A stretch of DNA of 64,000 nt from Sanguinoderma infundibulare (Eukaryota; Basidiomycota; Agaricomycetes; Polyporales; Polyporaceae). Under the pieces are notes generated by a model. That model searched no databases, was not told the DNA's origin, and was given only the letters and a program-made list of their open reading frames with translations. This document shows positions 11,706 through 26,520 of the stretch, in pieces (the stretch's first letter is position 1; every line of letters starts with the position of its first letter). Position numbers and translations under genes: made by a program. Where the stretch lies: the NCBI GenBank assembly GCA_032821775.1, contig JAVLRN010000008.1, positions 310,001-374,000 on the forward strand, written 5' to 3'.

Positions 11706-12112
11706 GTGGGCGTAATTCGGAATGCGGCGTACTGTGAATTCAGAACGGAAAGTTGTAGAAAATTCTATGAGCCAGCGGATGAAAGCGCGACCGTGCGGAA
11801 TGACCTGAGCAGCGAATTGTAAGAAGCCAATTAAGGCTTGCAGGTCACGGAGGCGACAAGTACGCCTCACCCACCAGAGTGTGAGTTGCTCACTGAACCA
11901 TTTGAGCTTGTCAATGGGCATTCGTGCCTCCATGGCGACTGTGTCGATTTCGAGTCCAAGGAATTCGAGGGCTGTGCAGGGGTAGATGGTTTTTGATGCC
12001 TGAAATTCGAGTCTGAGCCGCTCGCCTAAGTCCATGATCCAGTCCACCACAGTAGTGGTGAGGGAGGAAGGCATGCCCGGGGGGAATATAGAGAGGAAGT
12101 CGTCCAGATAGT
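11706..12112 (-). pseudogene. reverse transcriptase, C-terminal half
   Basis: Begins at the target duplication inside the catalytic YLDD motif (DDFLSIFPPG follows). It continues through the conserved ALEFLGLEID block and the thumb/connection region (DLQALIGFLQFAAQVIPHGR) and is open throughout. The fingers/palm half lies 14.4 kb away at 26521-27390. Confidence 0.85.
12106..12112. repeat. KDZ target-site duplication, left
   Basis: AGATAGT here is repeated at 26514-26520. If the true duplication is 8 bp, as in KDZ/Zisupton elements, one flanking base has mutated. Confidence 0.75.
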
Positions 12113-12381
12113 CACCATATGTTGTAGTTCTGATGTATCATAGTCCGGCTAACTCCCAGGAGCATTTTACAACAGGAGACGGCTAATTTGGTGATGTATC
12201 AGAACACCTCTGAGGCATCACCAGTGCCTTCACTTGGATATCTGGCCCCCCGGCGGCTTCTCGGCAGCCTTTCTAAAGCATTAGATGCTAATCTCGGGCT
12301 GATTGCAGCGTGCCTCCCCTTATCATACCGCACTACCACCTGATATGGTTTCCAAATTAGGACTGCACAGCGGGATGCGCG
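12113..12381 (+). repeat. KDZ terminal inverted repeat, left
   Basis: Matches the reverse complement of about 26245-26513 with scattered, mostly transition differences. The outermost ~15 bp are less alike (CACCATATGTTGTAG against CAGCTGCTGTTATAG); beyond that identity is high. Confidence 0.85.
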
Positions 12382-12590
12382 CTTTTTGAATGCGGGCGGG
12401 GTGCGCGTGATGGCTGCACCCCAGATGCACGTGCGCAGGCCATGCGAGGGTGGGGTGCATGCAATGGCTGTGCCCCAGATGCATGCGTGTGGGCCATGTG
12501 CGCATGGGGTGTGCGTGATGGTCATGCCCCAGATGCACGCATGCGGGCCATGCATGGGGCAGTGCGCAGGGAAGTGTGTACCACAGGGTG
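12382..12590 (+). repeat. subterminal 54 bp minisatellite, left
   Basis: About 3.5 copies of a 54 bp unit built around CCCCAGATGCA and GGGCCATGC. Being a multiple of three, the array stays open in several frames and gives ORF-like 18-residue repeats, which I do not regard as a gene. A matching inverted array is at 26040-26245. Confidence 0.75.
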
Positions 12591-12984
12591 CCTGCAAGGG
12601 CCATGATTGCATGTGTGGGGAGCAGTTGGTGGAGAGTGTGTGCTGGGGTGCACGCATGAAATGTATACTCAAAATGTGCACTGGACTGCTCAAATGCAAT
12701 AGGCGGGGAGTGCACGGAGCATGCATGTGCCTCGCGCCTTCCACTATAGGCACACAGAGGGGTGTATATCATTAACTACATGCACTATTGTAATGAAGCA
12801 GGGCGATACAGGGGGGGGGAGTGATACATGCAGGTGAGCAACCGGGAGAGATGAGAGCTTCGAGCAGGAACGCAGGGGGTCATATAAGGAGCGGCATGAA
12901 AACAGGACATACATTGGTGAGGGAGGTGAGCCCTGAATACCATCTGCAAGGCGGGCATTACTTGCGGTGACCTCGCTTTGCGGG

Positions 12985-14691
12985 TTAAGGGGTTTCTTCT
13001 GCGTCCTCTCGAACACGCTTTCTGTAAATATAAGTTCCTTTCAGGGCATTGAACATACACAGAGGGTCAGAATACTCACCGGCCCACCCAAGCTGCCATC
13101 TGACTGCACACCCACGCCACATCCTTTGCAGCATTGGTCCATTTCTCATGCATTGGGGCATTGTAGTCATTGCGCGTGGAATCTGCCACTTTAAGGCCCC
13201 ACCACGCAAGGGAGAGCAGCACAATACGAAGCCCATTCTTACCTGGCCTCTTGAGCGCATCCCAGTCTCCCTGTCCCCCGATGACAGGGAGATCGCCATT
13301 ACATTCATGCCATTCAGGCTGAATGGACGCCCACCAGCTTACCCACTCCTCAGCATACTCCGCGATGTCCTCGATCTTGGGGATTTTCGTGACGTCTGCA
13401 CAGAGGATGCATAGCCAGTCTGCTATCTGCTCTGGACGATTCTGTGTACCATAGCCTTTTGACTGTATGGTATGTTAGTGTAAAGAATTGGAGGACACAA
13501 TTGTGGTGTACTCACAGAGCTTTCCCAGTTGTAGGATCGCTCAACGACCGTCCACCACTCCGCCACTGATGTGAAGTCCAGCCCCAGCTGCAGCTGCTTC
13601 CCATCCATCCAATTGAATGTTTCATGTACCCACTGCGGCCACCCCTCCTCATTTAGAATAATCGCGGACGTACCCGACGCGTTCATTGATGCGAAGTCCA
13701 GTTGAATAGGGGCTGCGGGCTGTTGTGCAGGCTGCGATGCGACCAGCAGAGTTTTAGATGTAGAGACGTCTGTTGACAGGATAGTTGCGGGAGACAGCAA
13801 AGAGGGAGACCCTTCAGAGTGCGTGGATGGCCCAAGGACAGGTGTGTCTTGAGGCGGAGCAGAGCTCCCGTGCTGAGTCGATTCAAGCAGCACTTTCATG
13901 GCAACTGAGTCGGCAGGCAGTGCAATGTCGGTGGTGGGCAACTGGGGCGTAGAATCAAGCGGCAGAGGCTGAGAGGAAGACAAGGCAGGGGAGGCAGAAG
14001 ATGCTGTGGGCAGCATGGTGGTTGTGTCTTTCAGCCTTGCAGAGCGGCGCGGAGGAGCAGAGGACGACAAAGCGCACGTGGCATTTCCATGCTTGACGCC
14101 TGTGGTGGCTGAGCCCGTGGGTTGGGTGTTGACATTGAGGCTGCAGAGGAGCGCCTGGAAGACAATCCGCCCAGTAAATGCCCTCCGCTCGTACTTGGTC
14201 GAAATACTGTAGACATAGAGCTGCTGTCGGCGCATGGCGGGACTCAGTCTCTGGAGGAACTCGTGAACCGCGTCATGCAAGGTGAGCTCCTCCAACACAG
14301 GTATGACCGCGCCCGCTGGCACCCCTCCTCCAGCAAGAAGGTCCTCATCTTCATCCTTGTCCCGCACGTCCTCGTCCTCCACGCCCTCGTCCCGCACGTC
14401 CTCGTCCTCCACACCCTCGTCCCACACGTCCTCATCCTGCACGTCCTCATCCTGCATGTCCTCGTCCTGCACGTCCTCGTCCTCGTCCTGCCCGCCTCCA
14501 TCCTCAAAGACTTCGGCAAGCTTGTCCTCTTCCACACCTGACTCTTCCCCACTATCTGACTTGTCTGCAGGGAGCCTATGATGCCTGCCCTTTCGAGGCT
14601 GCTTATGCGTAGCTGGCTCCTTCCCTTTGCGCGCGGCCGGCTCCTTCCCTTTGCATGCAGCTGGCTCCTTCCCTTTGCGCGCAGCGCTCAT
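12985..14691 (-). CDS. KDZ cargo protein B: acidic repeats and Trp-rich C-terminal domain
   Basis: Starts MSAARKGKEP; an in-frame codon further up at 14835 is possible, and fusion with the gene upstream cannot be excluded. It has a basic N-terminus with three KGKEP repeats, a highly acidic tract of DED-V repeats (about 14350-14500), a linker rich in Ser/Pro, then a domain with WPQWVHETFNWM and later RPEQIADW, WVSWWASIQPEW and VLLSLAWWGL. Two introns (about 13457-13511 and 13033-13077) join the C-terminal exons, ending EDAEETP. This domain resembles a large family of uncharacterised mushroom proteins, from memory. Function unknown; the charge pattern suggests nucleic-acid or chromatin contact. 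Confidence 0.6.
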
Positions 14692-14935
14692 GGTGTGTTG
14701 GGCTGGCAGTGTCAGAGTGGAGATGAGTGGGGAGGGGTTTTTGGAAGGGGTGTCGAGGGCAGTTAAAGTGGGAGTCAACGTAGTGCTGGTCGGCAGGGTG
14801 AGGAGGTCTAAGCGTATGTGAGCTACAGGGTTCAACCGTGATGGGGTACTGGGGAGTGAGCCGCCACGAGCTCCCAGGTTAGCAGTTGGTGCTCGCCCCA
14901 GCTTCTCCTCTCAGGCAGTGAATTCTGTGTGAGTG

Positions 14936-16120
14936 TCAGCGACATTGGACATCAACGTGGATACAAAAGTACTGACAAGAGGTCTGTGACAGGAACCTTG
15001 TAAATGACCCCATAACGTTCATCTTGAAAAGCTCGCCTTCTGCCAGGTGCCAAGGTAGCAGAACGTTCCTACCTGTCTTGCCCACGGAGACTCTTTATAG
15101 CATTGAGGTCAGGCGCGTCATTGGAGTAAGGCATTCTCTTACATTTTCAGCTGGAACTCGCGCAGCCCCTCTTCATTGGGGATCCCAGCAATCAGTGTCA
15201 AGTAGAAGCCTGTCTTCTTCCTCAAGAAGTCCAGCATCGGCTGCATCACATGCGCCATGCTTTCATGGACCCTGTCTACTGCATAAGTCCCAACCTAGCA
15301 TTTAGCGATGCCAAACTTACTCCTCTTGTGCAGTCAGAGATACCTCAGTCTCAGTTCCCTTCTGCGTGTTCGCCGCCATGGACATCTCTTTAAACTGCAC
15401 CTGAAGTCCCTCCACAACATCTTGTGGAGCATTCGAAACAAGTTTGTTGGCGATGATGCAACAGAAGGCGATTTTGTGAGTATCTGGGAGCCCCGTGCCA
15501 GGCCACCGCCTCTCAAACTCTTCATCTACAGCAGATTTGTACATGCTCATGTACAGCTGCCCAAGGGACATTGTGCAGGGGACAGGCGGGGGAGCAACTT
15601 GGTCAAACAGGTCATATAGGATCCCTGTCCAAGGGTCCTTGTGAGTGCACTTCAAGGCACTGCGGCGATAGCAGAGGTGCGCATGAATGCGCTGGATAGC
15701 GTTCAGGTAAATAATGTGTCTCTTGAGGTCAAAGAGAGGTGCACTCACGTCTTCCATTGTCTTTATTATTTTTCCTTTTCTCTCCAGCCCCTCGCCGTTG
15801 AGCTCAGGCTCTTCAAGCTCCACATCGGGGTCGGGATCCTTGTCAAATGGAAGGTGCCATGGAAATTCCACCCAATACTCAGCGAAGATGCAGTCCCAAA
15901 AGTCATTCTGAGTGGCACACGGTTTGCCCTGAATCTCGGTAAAGGCCTCGAGGTACGTGCCCAGAAAGGTGTGTCGCTGCGGGGTAAAGATGGTAGGGTG
16001 CCCAGCTTTACCGCCCTTCAGCTGCCTCTTGCCCTTGCATTGAGCTGAAGCCACCTTGGACATCTTTGCAGAGGTTGGGTATGTTGCATCAAGAATTTCT
16101 AGGTCGAGGTTTGAAGCCAT
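14936..16120 (-). CDS. KDZ cargo protein A, uncharacterised
   Basis: Starts MASNLDLEIL at 16120. Exon 1 ends near 15749 (GTGAGT donor). The frame resumes at 15691 with RIHAHLCYRR, then PWTGILYDLF and MSLGQLYMSMYKS. Further introns let it read on through EVHESMAHVMQPMLDFLRKK, LIAGIPNEEG and VSVGKTEGELF to a stop near 14936. The arrangement resembles a family of uncharacterised mushroom proteins often found in multiple copies; no enzyme motif is seen. It lies just upstream of protein B on the same strand and the two may be one transcript or one long gene. It is divergent from the RNase H1-like gene, with 190 bp between. Confidence 0.55.
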
Positions 16121-16312
16121 GGTCGCGTGTACCCATCACATGTTGGGCTCGGGGAGTTGTTCAATTTCAGGTGGCTCCGTGCATGTGCGCAGCTGTAACC
16201 ACAAGCCAAGCACAAGACCCACCCCAACAGGCGCACTGTTTGGTATGTATCCGACGCCTTGCTATCATTCCCATGCTCAGGCTCCCCACCCCTCCCACCT
16301 GCCCTACTATCA

Positions 16313-17468
16313 ATGGTCGCCGCACACCTTTGCCGTGACTGGGACTCTACAGCCACGTCCCTCGGCCTCACCCCCAAGCTCAACAGCCAAAACAGAGTGG
16401 TCCCCATTGACCTGCCTGAAGACCCCAGGACTCCCCCCAACAAGCGGAAGCTCTATGTTGTCTGGGTCGGCCGCACTGTTGGGCTTTTCCACAACTGGTG
16501 CGTGTCAGCTTCAGTGTCACGTGTCTGAGATCTCACCTGTTTGGCACAGGGGCCTTGCCAGTGCCATGGTCTGTGGGTACAGTGGCGCGGCGTTCAAGGC
16601 CTTCATCAGGTTGGAGAATGCGCAGGCTGCCTGGGAGTGCGGTCCAACAGGGCGCAATGCCAGGTGGGGGACGCCGCCAGCCCCGCGCCATGCCATGTGC
16701 ACCCTGGGCCTTGCCCCCCACAACTCTCAGGATGACCAATCTGTCGGCGGACAAGGAGCTTGCGCTTCCTGACAAGCTCGAGCATGCCACTCAGGCACTG
16801 CCCGTCCAAGTCATGGTATCCTTGGAGGACTGGCGCAATGTCCACCTCTGCAAGGACGGCGGCTACCAAGATTACGCTCACGCCCCACGCTTGCTGTCAT
16901 CGGCATCCTCCACCTCCATCATCGACACCGACTCCTGGGTATCATCTGGCACTCTCACGCCCCACACCATTGCGACGCCCTGCACCATCGTCTCGGCCAT
17001 GGAAGACCTGTCCTTCGGGAAAAGGTACAGTATTGTCAATTGCGAGTACCTACGCCTCACTGAGCTCCTCGCTAATGGGGGCAGTTCATCAGGCAGGGCG
17101 GTGATGGGCTCTGTGCCCAGGAATGCGAGCGCAGGGTGTTCCTCAGCTATGCGTGGGGTTCTTGACAGGGCCAGCACCACAAGGAGGCAGCACCATGATC
17201 CTGTATTTGTTGTCGTGTGGGGCAACCATCCTGGCATGTACCTGGAGATGTAAGTCCTTTATTCTCCGCTCTATAGTTGGCTAAGCTCATAATTCTTGTC
17301 AGTGAGATTGCGCTCCAGGCCACTGGCTCCAACCTGGCAATGAAAATCATCCGTTTCACCTCGCTCAAGGTGGCATGCCTGTACTTTGTCCAGCAGTACA
17401 TGAATGGGCGAGTTGGCATGCCCGTCCTCGTGGTGGATGAGGATGAGCCTGAGCTGGAGGAAATCTGA
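16313..17468 (+). CDS. KDZ cargo protein with an RNase H1-type hybrid-binding domain
   Basis: Four exons: 16313-16497, 16550-16663, 16731-17249 and 17303-17468, all with GT-AG borders that keep the frame. Near the N-terminus KLYVVWVGRTVGLFHNW (spliced to GLASAMVCGYSGAAFKAF) matches the small N-terminal domain of eukaryotic RNase H1 shared with caulimovirus viroplasmin, which binds RNA/DNA hybrids or dsRNA. No catalytic RNase H domain follows; the remaining ~250 residues are unknown and end in an acidic DEDEPELEEI tail. A role in recognising hybrids or R-loops at the element is inference only. Confidence 0.7.
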
Positions 17469-17577
17469 TAGTGCATACTGTTGTATCAGTCTCTATGTGC
17501 CTGTGTATGTAAAGATGCATGTTGTCTAATACCATGCACCCAGTTCACGAACACGCCTTTGATCCGAGTCCCTGAAT

Positions 17578-17962
17578 TTAGATAGTAGTGAATGCATCAA
17601 GGCGCGCCTCCACCACAGCCATTGCATACAAGATATTATATGTAATGGACATCGTTTCCTGCCAGACATGTGAAATAACCTCCAGTGAAAGGCGTTCAAA
17701 TATCTCCCCCACCAATAGTGCTTCAAACCTAGTGAGAATGGCATCACCGTGTGATACCCATTCGCCTTGCCGCTGAATAAAACATGCTATATCTTCAGGA
17801 GAAGCCTGACGCAGCACCACAAAGTCGCACTGAATATCTTCCCGCAGCTGATCCAAGGGGCAAAAACCCCATGCCTGAAGGGCACTGTTGAGCAGGTGCA
17901 ATTCTGCAACGAACTCGGGGTCAACAGCAGGCCCGTGAGGCAGATTGAATGGGCCCTCCTGC
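17578..17962 (-). CDS. KDZ cargo, small uncharacterised protein (3' exon)
   Basis: An open exon after a plausible AAACAG acceptor reads EGPFNLPHGPAVDPEFVAEL, then WGFCPLDQLRED and an amphipathic helical end (EALLVGEIFERLSLEVISHV) to a stop at 17578. Upstream exons (17963-18500) could not be settled. No domain is recognised. Confidence 0.4.
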
Positions 17963-18554
17963 CTGTTTGAAGTGAACTATTAGCAACGCGCCGCTGTGAA
18001 GAATAAACCAGCTTACTGAGGTCGCCCACCGAAAAGAAAGGATGTATCGACAAAAGTAGGGGATGGATTCGGGCTGCATGACTTGTCTTCAGTAGGCTTT
18101 GTCAAAGTGTTGTTTGACGAAGCAACGCTGGGTACTGTTTGAGAATGTTGCTCCCTGCACGAATATTCTGTAACCAGCTGGGGGGCTGAAATTGAGGGAG
18201 TGACTCACCGAGCCTTTATCTTCTGGCGATATCTTTGGTTGTGGGCTTGACAGAGCAATCACCTTCACTCTTGCTTATCACTGGAAATGTCAAGTGGGTG
18301 GCCATGTATATGACCGCTAGACATAGCTGGGGGAAGGAAAGAGGAATTGGGTGGAGAAGACACGCCGAGACGCAATGAAAGTGCCATCTCCAGGGGTCTG
18401 GTGAGATGCGTCTTATTGTACCCCATGAATGGTGCGTCTCACCAAGTGTCTCACCAAGTGTCTTACATCCCACGGCCACACCATGCAGTATCCAGCTTAC
18501 TAGTAGGCTTCAAACAGCAGTGCAAGTTGATACCAGCTCTACATGTACATGATT

Positions 18555-20278
18555 TCACTGCCCACAGAATAGATCTGCCCATTTGCTAAAAACCTTCACC
18601 CCCTCCTCCCACCACTGCCTCCCAGTCTGCGAGAAATGCCCACCCACACTTGTGAAGGCCTTGAAGCTCTGATGGCCACATTCAACCCAGCAGAAGAGGC
18701 CGCCAGCGGAGTATTGGACCAGCAAATAGCGGAACTCATTCTCCGGGTTGCCCAGGCAGGTGTTTGAATGCTTGAGAAGGGCAGACGGAATGAGGATGGT
18801 GGAGCCAGCTGGGAACTCAATGACAAGCTTCAAATCCCATAGTACAAGGTGTCCGCCACGAGCAGAGTCGAATTTGCTGACCGTGGTGATTGCGCACCAC
18901 CTGTTAGGGAGGTTCAGGTGATCTGTGTGTCCAAAAGTTACCATGTGGGGCCCGACATTGAATGTGGCAGCGGCGAAGGGGTTGCCATGAAAGTTGCGGC
19001 GCAGTGAGGGGTTGTTTTTGCACATGTCAGCCAAGGTCTTTTCATATGCATTGTACATGTGTGGGCTTAGGACGCGCATGACTGCTGTGGAATCATAGTG
19101 GTTGATGATCAAGGACATGCTGAGAAGGGAATGAATGCATGCACAGCTACCAAAATTGGTGACACGATGGACTGCGCGCTTGCTGAGGGCGATGTTGAGG
19201 ACTGCCTGGTTGTAAGCTGTTTGCACCATGTTCCTTACTTGCTGGTGCATGGTGAGATTTGGAGGGCAGGCTGTGCGCGAGGCCTACCTGCTGCCCGCTG
19301 CCGTATGAGATCCCGCATCCTGCGGCATTGTAGCGTCCGCGACGGTGCAGCTGTCCAGGCTTCTTGAAGTGGTAGTGCTCGCTGAGGAATCAGAAGATGG
19401 GAAGTAGCTGCTCGTTCACTTCGCCCCAGTTGCTGTCCATGGGGTGGCCGGCGAGTGCAGCAATGACCTCACTCGTGCGGGTTAGGATGGGGCGGCATGT
19501 GCTATGGCGACTTGTGTTGCAGTGCACACGAGAGGGTACAATCATACACACGTACCTCCCATCCCAAGGCACATAGGTATACCCTAGCGCCTCCCAATCC
19601 TCCCGGGACATCAGCCACATGTCTGCCTTGGCCAGCTTCAAGCGACTACCCATGAATGCAGTGGACGCTACTCGAGCATCTTCCATGGAAAGCGACATAT
19701 CGGTGCGAATGGGCTCGCCCCCGGACATGTGGATGTTGGAGTTGTCCAGGGCGAGAGCCTTAGCAATGGTGCACTCACCATCCACACCATCTTCTGCAAC
19801 CTGGAGAGGGAGCGCGCCCTTCCAACGCTTGACTGTGGCAGTCTTGAGGGGCTTCAGCATCCCATGTCCCTGGGCCTCAGCCTCTGCCAAACATTTAGCG
19901 TGGTGGCATGTGTGCAAGGACTTTTTAGCCTTGCTTTTGGCAGTCGTGGTGGCAGAAGCTGTTGCCGATGGTGGCGGAGATGTGGCAGAGGTGGGCTGGG
20001 GGGAGGGAGGGAGTTCTGAGCCGCAGGGGGGCACGTCGCAATCCAGGAGCACGTCTAACGCTGACAAGGCATCAACTTCGTGGAGGTCCATGATCGCGCG
20101 TGCAACTAGCGGGGATGGGGGAGGGGTGCCGACTAAGGGATCATCGGTGTCATGTACCTCGCTTACGCCGTGCGCCAGTGCAGCTTCATAGTGCTCCGCA
20201 AGGTCGAAGCTCGTGGGGGCATAGATTGGCAGGCCCACCTCCGAGACCCAAGGGGAGAATATCTTGCCTCCCCGAGTC
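18555..20278 (-). pseudogene. TET/JBP-family 2-oxoglutarate/Fe(II) dioxygenase (predicted 5-methylcytosine oxidase), with an in-frame stop
   Basis: The core has the double-stranded beta-helix signature: Fe ligands H-x-D in FGHTDHLN, the GGHLVLWDL strand, the distal His in LLKHSN, an Arg 13 residues later placed to bind 2-oxoglutarate, and YSAGGLF. SLRRNF and AAATFNVGP are typical of the mushroom TET/JBP branch, which oxidises 5mC in DNA. An intron (about 19249-19298) splits GISYGSGQ from QVRNMVQ. The N-terminal half (19390-20278) has a Lys/Ser/Pro linker and starts after an acceptor at 20278; 5' exons are unresolved. In-frame TGA at 19390-19392 interrupts continuous homology, so the copy is probably dead unless the stop is read through. 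A Cys in LFCW replaces a usually basic residue. Confidence 0.85.
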
Positions 20279-20539
20279 TGTCCAAAAAGCGTGTAAGAGC
20301 CTGTGGCTTACAATCCAGCAGTCACACTATGCACCACACGAAATCCCTGGAGTGTGTTAAATGTGGCCTCTGTGGTAAAATGCAGTCAGATGATGTTACA
20401 GCGAGTGAGCAGTCCCCAGGCCGTGTGTTGCAAGCATCCCACATCCCAAGGGCAAGTCTGGGGGATGCTTGTGCAGTGCAGGCCTGTGGAAGGTGAAGTG
20501 ACATACCCTTATTCCACATTTGTGATGCTGTTGAGAGCC

Positions 20540-20602
20540 GGGGGCGGTGGTGGAGGTGCGAAGGGAGGCGGCAGTGGAGGTGCGAAGGGAGGCGGCTGTA
20601 GA
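20540..20602 (+). repeat. 24 bp tandem repeat between TET and transposase genes
   Basis: GGCGG..GTGGAGGTGCGAAGGGA occurs just over twice in tandem in the divergent intergenic space. A regulatory role is possible but not shown. Confidence 0.5.
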
Positions 20603-22021
20603 AGCGCCGGGTTGGGAATTCAACAACGTGGTAGTCATGGGCACAGGGTCTGTGACTGGTCGGCGCCAACCGACTCGGACTCTGGCCTGACCGACAAGTC
20701 CTCGCGCATGACCTCACTAGTCACTGGTGCTGCTAACTTCTTCTCTGCTCACTCCTTCTCGGAGTCCCTGCCACTATCCTTCCAGCCAATGTTCTTGCCC
20801 TTGGCATTCTTTCCCCTGCAACAATGTCCCGATGTGCTCCCAAATGTGCGTGAACCACTCTCGCCACACCGGACCCCTCCCTCACCACCGACTTTGAAGT
20901 ATCCCTTGCAGAAGCCTTCGAAGCGGCCGCCCCTTCTCTCCTCACAGTCAATAGAGTGTCTATGGACCGCCGCCGCTTCTACCAACATGTGGTCGCCCTT
21001 CCATACTCAGGCTCCCAGTCTCCTGCACCACAGCTCCCCCCTTTTCCTGAACCTGTGATGCACGACGATCCAAACCTTTTCTTGCTACCATCCATGCACG
21101 ACCATTCAGCGCACAGCGAGGAATCTGAGGGAGTGGAGGGCACGCAGAAAGCACCATGGTACATGACATCAGTGCATTAAACAGCCTGTGTATTTTATCT
21201 CCGCACCTCACTCGCTTTGGTCCCTAGGATGAGCCTATGAAGCAGTTCATCCCAAAGAGGCAATTCTATCTGGACGAGCTGCTGCGACGCGATGGCTGAG
21301 GAGACTTTGTGGCCAGTACATGCCCCTGCTGCCTCAATCCAGCCAACGCCGCCCATGCCGCCATCTGATGTATGGTGTGTTCTCCAGGTCCACTTCTTTG
21401 TGAGGCTTGTGTGGTGCGGCTCCATTCGAGGATGCCCTTCCATCGGGTCAAGGTGAGCCCCTCGTGATGTGTGCTTGGCTTTGGATTAAAAGGCTCCATA
21501 GCATTGGACCGGCGTGATTTTTGAGGACATTGCATTGAAGGATCTCGGCCTGAAGATCCAACTTGGCCATCAAGTTGATGGTTCACCTTGCTCGAACCCT
21601 ATCCCCATGCGCCGCTGATACACTATCCCAGGGCCTGTGGACAGTCGGGACGACCGAGGGCTGAGGGAGGTGAGGTCGGAGCGACGTCGCCGGTGTGGAG
21701 GGCGAGTATGGTCTCGAGTTCCCTTTGGTCGCGATCGCAACAAGTGCCGGGGAGAGGGGAGAAAAGTCGAACGAAGCTGGAGGACGAAAGTCGCGGTATA
21801 AGTCGCGTGATGAGTCGCTGTTGCAAGGTCGCAGTCAGGGGTCGCTGTCGCTGTCACAAGTTGCAATCGCAGTCGCTAGCTATACCCAGTGTTACGACAA
21901 CGGACTAAATGTGTACTATTTTTCACTTTTATTTTTACTCATTGTACCAATAGGCGACTCGTACTATGCAGGACATAGTCAGGGATTGGACTTGATCTCT
22001 ATACAGGTTACTAGCTCTAGC

Positions 22022-22128
22022 TGACTCATTCCATAGTCAGAATGACTCACTCCGCAGTTGCTGACTCAACATGACTCGTTCCGCAGTAATGCTGACTCAT
22101 CCTGCAGTCACTGACTCCCTATGAGTCA
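22022..22128 (+). promoter_or_regulatory. five TGASTCA (Gcn4/AP-1-type bZIP) sites in the LTR
   Basis: Exact sites at 22022-22028, 22043-22049, 22062-22068, 22093-22099 and, as TGAGTCA, 22122-22128, lying among repeats of CATTCCGCAGT. They sit 75-180 bp before the LTR TATA box, as expected of U3 enhancers. Confidence 0.65.
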
Positions 22129-22202
22129 TTCCGCAGTCTATGACTTCACAGGACTCATTCCCGCAGTAGTTAGTAAGCCGCAGCATGCAGCACTTAGACA
22201 TG

Positions 22203-22210
22203 TATATAAG
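22203..22210 (+). promoter_or_regulatory. TATA box of the solo LTR
   Basis: TATATAAG downstream of the bZIP-site array, followed by GGGGCGACGCC; it probably sets the U3/R boundary about 30 bp further on. Confidence 0.6.
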
Positions 22211-25200
22211 GGGCGACGCCTCAGTAGTGACCCCCAGTTTTCAGTCTCCTGTTTTATACACCAAGTTGTATATCATTCCATCTCTATAGTCAACAGACTA
22301 TAAAGTCCCTCTAAGCTTTACTTCGACAAGCCTAAGCTTAGTCTAAGAACGTGTTAATACTTGTAAAAGTCCTACAAGTATTGAGACATAACACCCAGAG
22401 GAGGACGATGTTGAGTCGCGGTCGCTCGCCGGAGAAATGAGAGGTGAAAGGTGGGGGGATCCAAGATTGTGTGCCCAAACAGCCGTCGACTGGGTTAAGT
22501 ACATCGAGCCTGTAACTATGCGCGACAACTATAGTCTAGCCTGCCTCGCAGCGATGAGCGCCTGCGACAACCCATATCGAAAACCCATCGGAACATCAGC
22601 GACCGTCACAAGGCCGTGACCGGTCGTGCGACTTGGGGTCGGCTCGCCTTGTCATCGCATGGTCGCACGATGTCGCTGGTCGTCGGCGATCGCAGTTGGG
22701 GGTCGTGACCGATACCTGTCACCAAGACCAACTAGTGAGAGACGACTCGCAGACCGTCGCGCGATGCGACTGTAAAGATGCTGAACGACTTAACTTGTGG
22801 CCCGCCGCTACGCTGCCACACGCAAGGCGCAGACAGGCGGGCTGGGTCGCTGTGGTCACCAGTTCGGGCCGATCGGGAGCTTCGCACCGGCGACGGAGAT
22901 CGCCGACATTCTAGGCCTTTGCCTCGTGCCAAAGGGTCGGTGCGTCGCGCGACCGCCGATGCTGTCGGCGACTCGGAAACTCCCGCGACGTCGCATGGCG
23001 CGAAGTCGCGGTCGCTGTCTGAAAGGGGTAGTCACGCCAACTTCTGCGAATGGAAGCGTCGGGTGCGCATCACCGCGACTTCACTGTGCTTCATGTCAAT
23101 GGCATCCATGGCGTTGCCCTATCCCTTTGTGGCTGTGACAAAGCCAGGTGTGCGGGCAACATCGTTCAGCAACTTCTGCATGCCGACCTTTGGCCAGTGA
23201 TGGACATGGAGCCCAACACTTGCTTCTCCTTTCAAATGCTGGAGAACTATCATGTCATGAGTGTCCAGGGCAAGGTTTCCATGTACGACTACTACTGCGC
23301 ACTTGAACGCATGACAGACATCACGGGGACTGTGAAGATCCAGGACCAGTACCGCACGTTCATGCGCGTCGTCGTGCAGCGGCGGCACGTCAAGCTATTC
23401 AAATGTGTCAGCTGCGGCCACGATCCAACTGGCGTCGAGGGTACCAAGCCTGGTGAGCTCGCCCTTTGTTGCCCTGCATGTCCACGGCCTGGCATCAATC
23501 TTCTGCCCAACTGGGACAAAGTTGCTGAGGATTTGAAGTACGCGCTCCCGCATGAACATCTTGTGCACCCTGCTAATAATGGTATTAGGTTCCTATACAC
23601 CATATCTGTCGCGGTTGACGCATGTTTCCGCCTCAAGCAGCGCGACGTCTCTAGTGAGGAGAAAGATCCTATTCTCGGTAGCGGCTGGGGTTATTTCGTC
23701 GAAGACAAGGGCTACAAGGAAGTCCTTGCGATGTATGGTGATCAGGAAGATGTGCGCCCAACATTTCCTATTCCGGCCAACTTGCAAACACTTACTTGTT
23801 GTCAGATCTCTACCTGCACCGGGCTCTCAGCCATTGACCACACAAACACAAAGTTTTTGAAAGGCTATGCCGCGACTGGAGTTGGAGCTGTTGTCTGCAC
23901 GCGGCATGAGTTTTGGCTGCCTGGTGGCTTGGCAGACTTGCAGAAGGGAGAACGGTGTGCCCTTTGTACACAGTGCTTGTGTTTGTCAGTTGATTTACAC
24001 CACAGTCGCTAGATATGTTAATATGGATTACATATTTGCATCAGTGATGCTGGAGTACCTCATCCTCAACAAGCTAGTCAGCTATGACATCGCCTGTCAG
24101 TGGTGGAAGGGCTTGAAGGACCGCCTCGCTGCCTTTTCAAGCTGCCTCCACATCCCCCTTCCTGATGAAACAATTGGCTACATCATCCCAAAGCTACACT
24201 ATGCGAGCCACAAGAGTGAAGGTCATTTGCCTTTCTTGCTGAACTATTGCCTTGGGTCTGCACGCTTAGATGGCGAAGGGATTGAGTGGCATTGGTGGTG
24301 GATTCAGCCAGTAGTCAGCAGTACAAGGGTCATGGGGCCAGGCTCGCGTCAAGGTATGCTGGAGGACCAGCTGAGCTACTCAAACTGGTGCAAGACAATC
24401 GAAATGCGTAGGTGCTACATTGGATTGATGCACGATCAACAAGCTGATAGAAAATTTCAGTACGGACTCTCCGCGAATGTTTGCGCATGGCGCACCGAAC
24501 TTATGTCGAGCAGAAGCATCTTTTCGAGGAGCTCACAGCGTCGCTCCTGTCCGAAAATGTGGCCAAGTGGGAGGTGGACGTGAAGGCATGGGAGAAGGAT
24601 CCCTTCAACAGTGATGATCCCTATGTAGTGGCGTCCCAAGGTAAGCAATGCATGTTACTACTGTACAATGTCCCTCAAACGCTTATATCTATAAGGTATG
24701 ACTGAGGCTGAGACCCTCCGTGAACTCTCCCGGGAGGAGTAACAGGCCAGCGTGATGCCTGGATTTGTCGCAGTGCACGAAGTAAGCGTGTTCGGATTCA
24801 TGACGATGGGGCTGGAGCTGGAGGAGGTGCAGTAAGTTTAAGTAATTAAATTAGGTTCAATGCCGCTGCTGATATTTTGACATGTAGAATGCGCCTACAG
24901 GCAGATGCCAAGGACTCCCCCCCAGGCAAGGCGGCGGAGCTTTTTGAGCGGCATACATCGCTTCGTCACAAAGTCCAAAAGTTCCACAACATGCAGAAAG
25001 TCCACATGTCAGGTGCCGCACCCATCATCGAGGCTTATGCAAACTGCCGCATGGACATTGAACAGATCAAAAATGTCCGCCTGGCCATGCCATCCGAGAT
25101 CAACCCCTCCCATCGGAACACCATGTGCTCCCCGTGGATCCAGGAAATGGAGGCTAGATTGCATGAGGCACAGTGCAGGGATGCCCTCCAGGATATCCGC

Positions 25201-26039
25201 AACAAGCTCCACACTATCAGCCACCTGTACTGGTACAAGAAGCTGCACGTTCGCCATCAAGGCCCAAACACCCGGGTGCGCAGTGACATCGCGAGCGAGG
25301 ACAAGCGCAAACTTCACGTGGTTCACAAATACTGCCGCGCCCGACTCGCAAAGTTGGCACTGTCGGGGCCCGGGCCTTGGGAGGTAGAGCTTCGTGTCTT
25401 GAATGACAGTGACGTTCGTGGCCTAGAGGAAGACAACCCAAGCTCCACCGCAGTGCAGCGGAGGCAGAGGCAAGCCAGCAGTAGCAAGACCATCCCTGCT
25501 GAGGGGAGGCGAACACTTTTCTGGATATGGAGTGCCTCTGACGTGGGGGGTACAAATGTCATGGTTGACTCCCTGCACGTTGAATGGCTGAAGGCTCGCG
25601 CTCGGGTCATGCGCTGGCATGAGGAGGTCAGGCTTCTCCTGGAGGAGATGCACCGGGTACTAGCAAGCCACCAGCACAGCAAGGACGCATGGCTGGCACG
25701 AGCTTCAATGTGGGCGAACAGTGTTGACTCTGCCCTGCATGAGGGCCTGGCTGCTTATGCTTACAAGCAGGTAGGCATGTACAGGATGATGAGGAGAACA
25801 TTCTGGGCAACGTGTTTGCCTGACGCGCTGGCAGCTAATGGTGGTACAGGCAGGGAGTGGGTAGATGATGGAGGGCTCCCAGTTTCAGTTACTGAGGAGG
25901 ACGAGGTGCTCATGTTTGACTCAACAGCCATGTACGAGCTGGACGGTGAAGATTTAGAGGGTGCTATGTATACTTAGATAGTAGTCACATTATTATGGTC
26001 TTCTTGCCTATCCATCGTGCTGGCTTCCACATGGGCACC

Positions 26040-26245
26040 CTGGTGCGCGACCATCACGTGCACCCTGCCTGTGCATGGCCCGTGCGTGTGCATCTGGGGT
26101 GCAGCCATCGTGCACACCCTGCCCTCGCATGGCCCACGTGCATGCATCTGGAGCACGACCATCATGCACACCCTGCCCGTGCATGGCCCACGCACATGCA
26201 TCTGGCATGCGACCATCACACGCACCCCACCTGCATTCAAAAAGC
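26040..26245 (-). repeat. subterminal 54 bp minisatellite, right
   Basis: Inverted counterpart of 12382-12590; about 3.5 units of 54 bp. Units differ from each other more than the outer TIRs differ, so unit exchange has occurred within each end. Confidence 0.75.
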
Positions 26246-26513
26246 GTGCATCCCACTGTGCAGTCCTAATTTGGAAACCATATCAGGCAGTAGTGCGGTA
26301 TGATAAGGGGAGGCACGCTGCAATCAGCCCGAGATCAGCATCTACCACTTTAGGAAGGCTGCTGAGAAGCTGCCGGGGGGCCAGATATCCAAGCGGAGGC
26401 ACCAGTGATGCCTCAGAGGTGTTCTGATACATCACCAAATTAGCTGTCTCCTGTTGTAAAATGCTCCTGGGAGTTAGCCAGACTATGATACATCAGAACT
26501 ATAACAGCAGCTG
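26245..26513 (-). repeat. KDZ terminal inverted repeat, right
   Basis: Reverse complement of 12113-12381 with few differences. Followed by the AGATAGT duplicate at 26514-26520. Confidence 0.85.
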
Positions 26514-26520
26514 AGATAGT

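Follow-up and report, generated by a model that had tools for sequence, protein, structure and literature searches.

The window analysed here is a 64,000-nucleotide stretch of contig JAVLRN010000008.1 of the basidiomycete Sanguinoderma infundibulare (assembly GCA_032821775.1, positions 310,001 to 374,000), and it contains a KDZ-class DNA transposon, called E1 below, that spans positions 12113-26513 of the window (14,401 bp). The element is bounded by long terminal inverted repeats (TIRs), the arms of which (12120-12554 and 26072-26506) are 435 nt each and 86% complementary, with a further 7-bp tip on each side. The two ends were organized as follows.

12106..12112, no strand: left target duplication, AGATAGT, 7 bp, present as a single copy at an empty site
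12113..12554, plus strand: left TIR, 7-bp tip CACCATA and 435-nt arm
12391-12558: left 54-bp subterminal tandem units, within or adjoining the left TIR
26040-26227: right 54-bp units
26072..26513, minus strand: right TIR, 435-nt arm and 7-bp tip GCAGCTG
26514..26520, no strand: right target duplication, AGATAGT, 7 bp

One genome was searched (48,895,467 bases in 87 contigs), and the TIR probe 12113-12400 gave eight matches, which paired into four elements.

E1: window 12113-26513
E2: C4:1389641-1402355
E3: C9:186809-199589
E4: C8:2552095-2581006

The four copies were colinear. E1 was approximately 94% identical to each of the other three, and E2 to E4 were 97.7 to 97.9% identical to one another when the 16.1-kb insertion of E4 was left aside. 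Each copy ended in CA..TG at the identical base and was flanked by a perfect 7-bp duplication that was different in every case (AGATAGT, TGTCACC, GCGGCGA, and CGAGCTT). Comparison of the copies placed the 7 terminal bases outside the 435-nt arms within the element and the target duplications external to them. In addition, when the flanks of E1 were joined with one AGATAGT, they aligned to an empty site at C9:1593487-1593881 (query positions 5-399, 82% identity), which lies within a related repeat. The flank of E1 reads as reverse transcriptase-like, with a weak match to Pfam RVT_1 in one of two pieces (14.6 bits, cut-off 29.6). Because the copies have common ends, distinct duplications, and an empty site, the boundaries 12113-26513 are exact. 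A first-pass annotation of the window had proposed this unit with both termini and a 7-bp duplication, had suggested a TIR search for other copies, and had counted ends that fall elsewhere as evidence against the unit; the ends agreed in all four copies. The same results bear on the idea that no single unit exists and that separate elements are nested here by chance, the TIRs being unrelated and the genes between them belonging to the host. Nested insertions do occur in the region, but four colinear copies, 94 to 98% identical and with the same ends, distinct duplications, and an empty site, make such a nest extremely improbable.

The TIRs of the four copies differed by gaps of 54, 108, or 162 bp, which are multiples of the 54-bp subterminal unit. 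At the positions that distinguish the left from the right tip in E2 to E4, E1 was opposite at four of four, so that its tips (12113-12119 and 26507-26513) are swapped. This would be explained most simply if recombination between the TIRs of E1 had turned its interior around.

Six genes were modelled between the TIRs. They were drawn by eye on genomic sequence alone, with the open frames and the GT-AG borders common to the copies as guides, and their ends and small exons are uncertain.

20824..25977, plus strand: KDZ transposase gene with a CxC2 cysteine cluster, exons by eye
18555..20301, minus strand: TET/JBP-like dioxygenase gene, exons 20301-19556, 19501-19288, and 19241-18555, start codon not fixed
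16313..17468, plus strand: gene C, encoding a protein with an RNase H1 N-terminal (hybrid-binding) domain
12985..14691, minus strand: gene A, 543 codons, exons 14691-13516, 13462-13080, and 13021-12985
15139..16120, minus strand: gene B, 266 amino acids, main exon 16120-15321 and a short second exon by eye
17578..18168, minus strand: gene D, C-terminal 126 amino acids well defined, upstream exons uncertain

The KDZ transposase domain (PF18758) scored 66.4 and 90.9 bits, above the cut-off of 26.6, and the CxC2 domain (PF18803) upstream of it scored 95.6 bits (cut-off 27), or 105.6 bits in E2. The PF01693 domain of gene C was scanned in the spliced E2 copy and reached 41.7 bits, above the cut-off of 21. 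These results demonstrate that the KDZ transposase and the RNase H1-like hybrid-binding cargo named in the first-pass annotation are both present, and genes A, B, and D are the three further proteins of unassigned function that it had counted.

TET-bearing KDZ transposons of Agaricomycetes are reported to have been described by Iyer et al. (PNAS 2014). Kyakuja transposons with TET genes, 7-bp duplications, and CA..TG ends are already published by Kojima 2025 (PMC12730594), and the 7-bp duplications and CA..TG termini were found in all four copies here. E1 resembles these elements in its KDZ transposase, its duplications and termini, its TET/JBP-like cargo, and its Agaricomycete host, which looks like a polypore by its best protein matches. 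It differs in its 435-nt TIR arms, whereas two Laccaria families (Kyakuja-1_LB and -2_LB) are described there as lacking TIRs, a state given for those families and not shown as defining the group. Its TET-like gene is also not of the AG type, and its cargo further includes genes A, B, and D and a hybrid-binding protein of the RNase H1 type. The element is a variant of the published KDZ-TET kind, and a family in Kojima's supplementary tables could match it; its long TIRs, TET subtype, hybrid-binding cargo, and a gene A common to a second KDZ family stand out. The PF01693 domain has also been found on another fungal transposon, the Helitron that captured capE in Pleurotus ostreatus (PMC4289320), which differs from E1 in being a Helitron and not a KDZ element, and for which the available part of the paper mentions no TET. 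The listed titles and abstract openings on KDZ, transposon 2-oxoglutarate and iron-dependent dioxygenases (2OGFeDO), and viroplasmin, with subscription journals mostly outside their coverage, contained no description of this TET-like subfamily or of RNase H1-domain KDZ cargo.

The predicted fold of the TET-like protein was closest to those of NgTET1 and of CcTet, the AG-type enzyme of Coprinopsis cinerea (PDB 7vpn, 7w5p, and 8jkk), with a double-stranded beta-helix and an HxD...H iron site in the predicted structure and the alignment. Its HxD aligned to that of the genome's AG-type TETs in a profile match, and the protein shares the motif H-x-D-x-x-N with human TET2. The active-site columns were conserved over 36 aligned TET-like sequences, and the pattern HxDxxN..(W/L)C occurred in 99 of the 120 relatives listed, with HxN in two. 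Identity to human TET2 and NgTET1 was 14 to 19%; compared to these two enzymes, the E1 protein is fungal, transposon-borne, and known here from its sequence and predicted fold. NgTET1 has an Asp where human TET2 and the TET-like subfamily have an Asn, the residue (Asn1387) that in human TET2 is reported to hold N4 of 5-methylcytosine (5mC) and to clash with N6-methyladenine (6mA) (PMC11040006). CcTet is reported to require Asp337 for 5mC (PMC12730594, PMC11040006). The E1 subfamily differs from CcTet in having an Asn at the Gly331 position and no Asp at 337, where an invariant Cys stands in the 36 sequences by residue count from the His, or an Ala in a gapped profile alignment. Asp337 was invariant in 10 aligned AG-type exons, of 16 AG-type loci in the genome. 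Furthermore, the genome's AG-type genes matched CcTet at 8.4e-17, in contrast to the E1 subfamily, which had no sequence match to it at an E value of 10 or below. E1 has HxD and not the HxE that marks the PE type. A search with PF20515, which we take to correspond to the PU-type TET, gave no match in the genome, and the controls were likewise without a match. Transposon TETs have been sorted into PU, AG, and PE (PMC12730594), and by the residues above the TET-like subfamily is neither AG nor PE type. It may equal Kojima's PU type or be among those described by Iyer et al. in 2014.

The copies differed mainly by CpG-to-TpG changes. Among changes unique to E1, transitions at CpG occurred at 0.2205 per site versus 0.0186 for other C/G transitions (approximately 12-fold), and the corresponding rates were 0.0530 versus 0.0017 in E2 (32-fold), 0.0616 versus 0.0027 in E3 (23-fold), and 0.0540 versus 0.0019 in E4 (29-fold). 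The ratio of observed to expected CpG was 0.65 in E1 and 0.81 to 0.82 in E2 to E4. Changed CpGs were commonest after A (0.111 per site) and rarest after T (0.056), so that the decay does not follow the TCG pattern of change given for Pucciniomycotina (PMC12730594); the same source cites hypermutation as not detected in Agaricomycotina. Since the decay is specific to CpG, E1 to E4 were very probably methylated in the past.

Every copy has at least one broken gene. The KDZ frame is interrupted by stops at CGA-arginine positions in E1 and E4, at an arginine in E2, and at a tryptophan in E3; in addition, the frames of E1 and E4 carry insertions, that of E1 being 1,457 bp long. Only E2 retains a TET-like frame that is open with GT-AG borders across the modelled part: E1 has a premature TGA at 19390-19392, the stops of E1 and E4 again lie at CGA-arginine positions, and a splice donor is altered in E3. 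Gene C is frameshifted past its domain in E1 and open in E2 to E4, and E2 has stops in genes A and D. The element had been called complete, which holds for its two ends, but in E1 the genes for the transposase, the TET-like enzyme, and the hybrid-binding protein are all broken.

Taken together, these results lead us to favor the reading, at a probability of roughly 0.65, that E1 is a Kyakuja-type KDZ cut-and-paste transposon, once mobile, which carried a TET/JBP-like dioxygenase and four further genes between long TIRs and whose TET-like protein countered CpG silencing. While active, the KDZ transposase would have cut at the CA..TG ends and inserted the element with 7-bp duplications, with the 54-bp subterminal units as its likely binding sites. 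The TET-like protein would have oxidized 5mC on the element and so loosened host CpG silencing, and protein C, through its RNA-DNA hybrid-binding domain, possibly brought it to transcribed copies. Copies that were silenced would have stayed methylated, and deamination of methylated CpG would then have made stops in the transposase and TET-like genes. That transposon TETs aid escape from methylation has been proposed and is stated as not validated by experiment (PMC12730594, section 4.2), and an enrichment of oxidized methylcytosine in Laccaria and Coprinopsis transposons has been reported (PMC8889193).

Several results weigh against this reading. First, the TET-like gene scored 15.2 bits with Pfam Tet_JBP (PF12851), below the cut-off of 34.9, and is called TET/JBP-like here for that reason; this cut-off is a detection limit and not a biochemical definition. 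The TM-scores to solved TETs were modest (0.36 to 0.53 by query length). The TET-like exon had no match among PDB sequences at an E value of 10 or below, and the profile of the subfamily gave seven PDB rows at the same threshold, all at 0.024 or worse and none of them a TET; four of the seven cover its N-terminal region, away from the catalytic core, and were not counted. Second, an open KDZ frame remained in none of the four copies under the by-eye model, because of the stops in all four and the insertions in E1 and E4. Third, the TET-like gene had a nonsynonymous-to-synonymous (N:S) count of 20:5 in E1, where 2.24:1 is expected under neutrality, so that selection for it is not seen in this comparison. 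Fourth, families that bear a TET did not decay less at CpG. In this last comparison, CpG transitions were divided by other transitions; pairs were scored unpolarized, with every non-CpG site as the reference, and their values are only roughly comparable with those of larger groups. Loci besides E1 to E4 were 3.2- to 3.6-kb pieces, and L001, L005, L006, L017, L040, and L045 were excluded. The ratios were as follows.

AG-type TET families: 32.7 (7 copies), 27.5 (5 copies), and 24.1 (3 copies)
137-amino-acid TET kind: 19.7 (7 copies, a diverged eighth excluded) and 27.9 (a pair of related loci)
E2-E4: 29.0, or 13.9 when E1 was included
KDZ-422: 27.9 (one pair, no TET hit nearby)
KDZ-438: 4.9 (3 copies, TET carriage ambiguous)
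Two outlying TET-like loci: 6.3

Six of the seven TET-bearing groups decayed 20- to 33-fold at CpG, compared to 28-fold for KDZ-422, a small sample in which the TET-less side is one pair. KDZ-422 was taken as TET-less on the basis that no Tet_JBP or TET-like hit lay near the two loci used, whole elements not being covered. KDZ-438 and the outlying TET-like loci look old because they contain many transversions, and they are weak evidence either way. The proposal that TET-bearing families were spared CpG decay was rejected, as they gave no sign of weaker decay than the KDZ-422 pair. Equal decay in the TET-bearing groups and this pair argues against lasting protection, which is not supported, and not against action while the element was active; the decay may have come after silencing. 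Counted over all groups without E1, CpG transitions exceeded other transitions 20- to 33-fold in seven of nine KDZ/TET groups.

Two other explanations of the cargo bear on these findings. In the first, the TET-like enzyme acts on 6mA, thymine, RNA, or host genes instead of 5mC in the element, and its role is not anti-silencing. The distance of the subfamily from every solved TET by sequence, its lack of the Asp on which CcTet depends for 5mC, and the absence of relief from CpG decay in TET-bearing groups would all fit. However, the subfamily retains the Asn that corresponds to Asn1387 of human TET2, a residue reported to bind N4 of 5mC and to clash with 6mA (PMC11040006), and the folds predicted to be closest are those of 5mC oxidases, and we consider a different substrate unlikely. 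In the second, the cargo genes are passive passengers caught between the TIRs that gave the element no help. The N:S counts used non-CpG differences between E1 and the others, with CpG and TpG/CpA sites and gene D excluded, transition weights of our choosing, and only the first KDZ exon. Besides the TET-like gene, they were near the neutral expectation for gene A (17:6, 2.57 expected), gene C (6:2, 2.46), and the first KDZ exon (3:0, 2.61), as passengers would be; only gene B was lower than expected (7:6 versus 2.36). Purifying selection visible between copies was rejected on these counts. Gene B is also an orphan, and the broken gene or genes in each copy point in the same direction. Yet the four copies are colinear, gene A also lies 8.4 to 8.5 kb from six of six copies of a second KDZ family, the active-site columns are kept in 36 aligned sequences, and single gene models combine a TET-like domain with KDZ (Schizophyllum amplum) or with a Plavaka match of 25 residues (Trametes sanguinea). 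For these reasons, we find passive carriage more doubtful still than a different substrate. What had been called a TET/JBP gene has fold and profile support but falls below its Pfam cut-off and is not of the established AG type; the suggested role of the cargo against host methylation holds as far as CpG decay and very probable methylation of the element, but not as far as protection by the TET.

A broader proposal can be put forward tentatively and is, in our view, considerably less likely than the reading above. Mushroom KDZ and Plavaka elements may carry a further TET-like class beside AG, PU, and PE, with the pattern HxDxxN...(W/L)C and a TET2-like 5mC pocket, which would be widespread in Agaricomycetes and mostly below the Pfam cut-off. 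In the E1 element, its partner would be a protein that binds RNA-DNA hybrids and guides it to transcribed copies, so that demethylation would occur only where the element is active; if this loop failed, decay of methylated CpG would destroy the demethylase gene itself. PF12851 matched 13 of the 36 aligned TET-like sequences at an E value of 1 or below (best 5.3e-06) and was precomputed on only 1 of the 120 relatives listed, and Pfam-based counts of mushroom TETs may therefore be too low. The subfamily leads to a sharp biochemical prediction, since it has a TET2-like Asn pocket and no counterpart of CcTet Asp337, and copy-to-copy mutation spectra are a simple readout for the TET-protection idea in a genome with several KDZ families.

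The remaining cargo genes differed in their distribution. Relatives of gene A (34 to 36% identity) were found at six places, each 8.4 to 8.5 kb, start to start, from a KDZ-422 member, so that two KDZ families carry gene A. In a large protein search, neither gene B nor the conserved portion of gene A had a homologue at an E value of 1e-4 or below (343 and 342 candidates, respectively); the search was word-based and could miss weak relatives. Judged by eye, two Trametes gene models, P0002 and P0005, continue past their TET-like domain into a segment that resembles gene D. The first-pass annotation had counted cargo genes at orthologous loci without KDZ termini as evidence against the unit. Within the genome, genes B and D were confined to the four copies, but relatives of gene C and of the TET-like gene lie outside these TIRs (76% and 46% identity). 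The gene C relative is at C4:2629101, and a KDZ match that has decayed lies approximately 19 kb away.

The insertion in the KDZ gene of E1 has a composite structure.

21616..23072, no strand: nested insertion in the CxC2 exon, 1,457 bp, between CCGC at 21612-21615 and 23073-23076, present in none of E2-E4
21890..22393, no strand: solo long terminal repeat (LTR)-like segment TGTTA...TAACA within the nested insertion, between CCCAG, by eye

GTCGC-type repeats are abundant in the nested insertion, and its CpG observed/expected ratio without the LTR is 1.28, which is normal compared to its CpG-poor surroundings. Related pieces also occur in the 16.1-kb insertion of E4 (C8, approximately 2554286-2570378), which splits the E4 KDZ gene. 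By eye, the latter appears to terminate in AGGGTGTAGCACGGGTG inverted repeats that are flanked on both sides by CCTTCACT, and long retroelement-looking frames lie inside it.

TET-like genes of at least three kinds are present in the genome, together with several KDZ families. Relatives of the E1 TET-like gene with 46% identity lie at C3:4098094 and C17:434705 (L043, L044, L058, and L059), two loci that are 95% identical and have no KDZ or Plavaka match within approximately 100 kb. The third kind, HRDRKDLEACVVLPVG..., has a 137-amino-acid exon (L032, L034-L040, and L045) and is CpG-poor in several copies.

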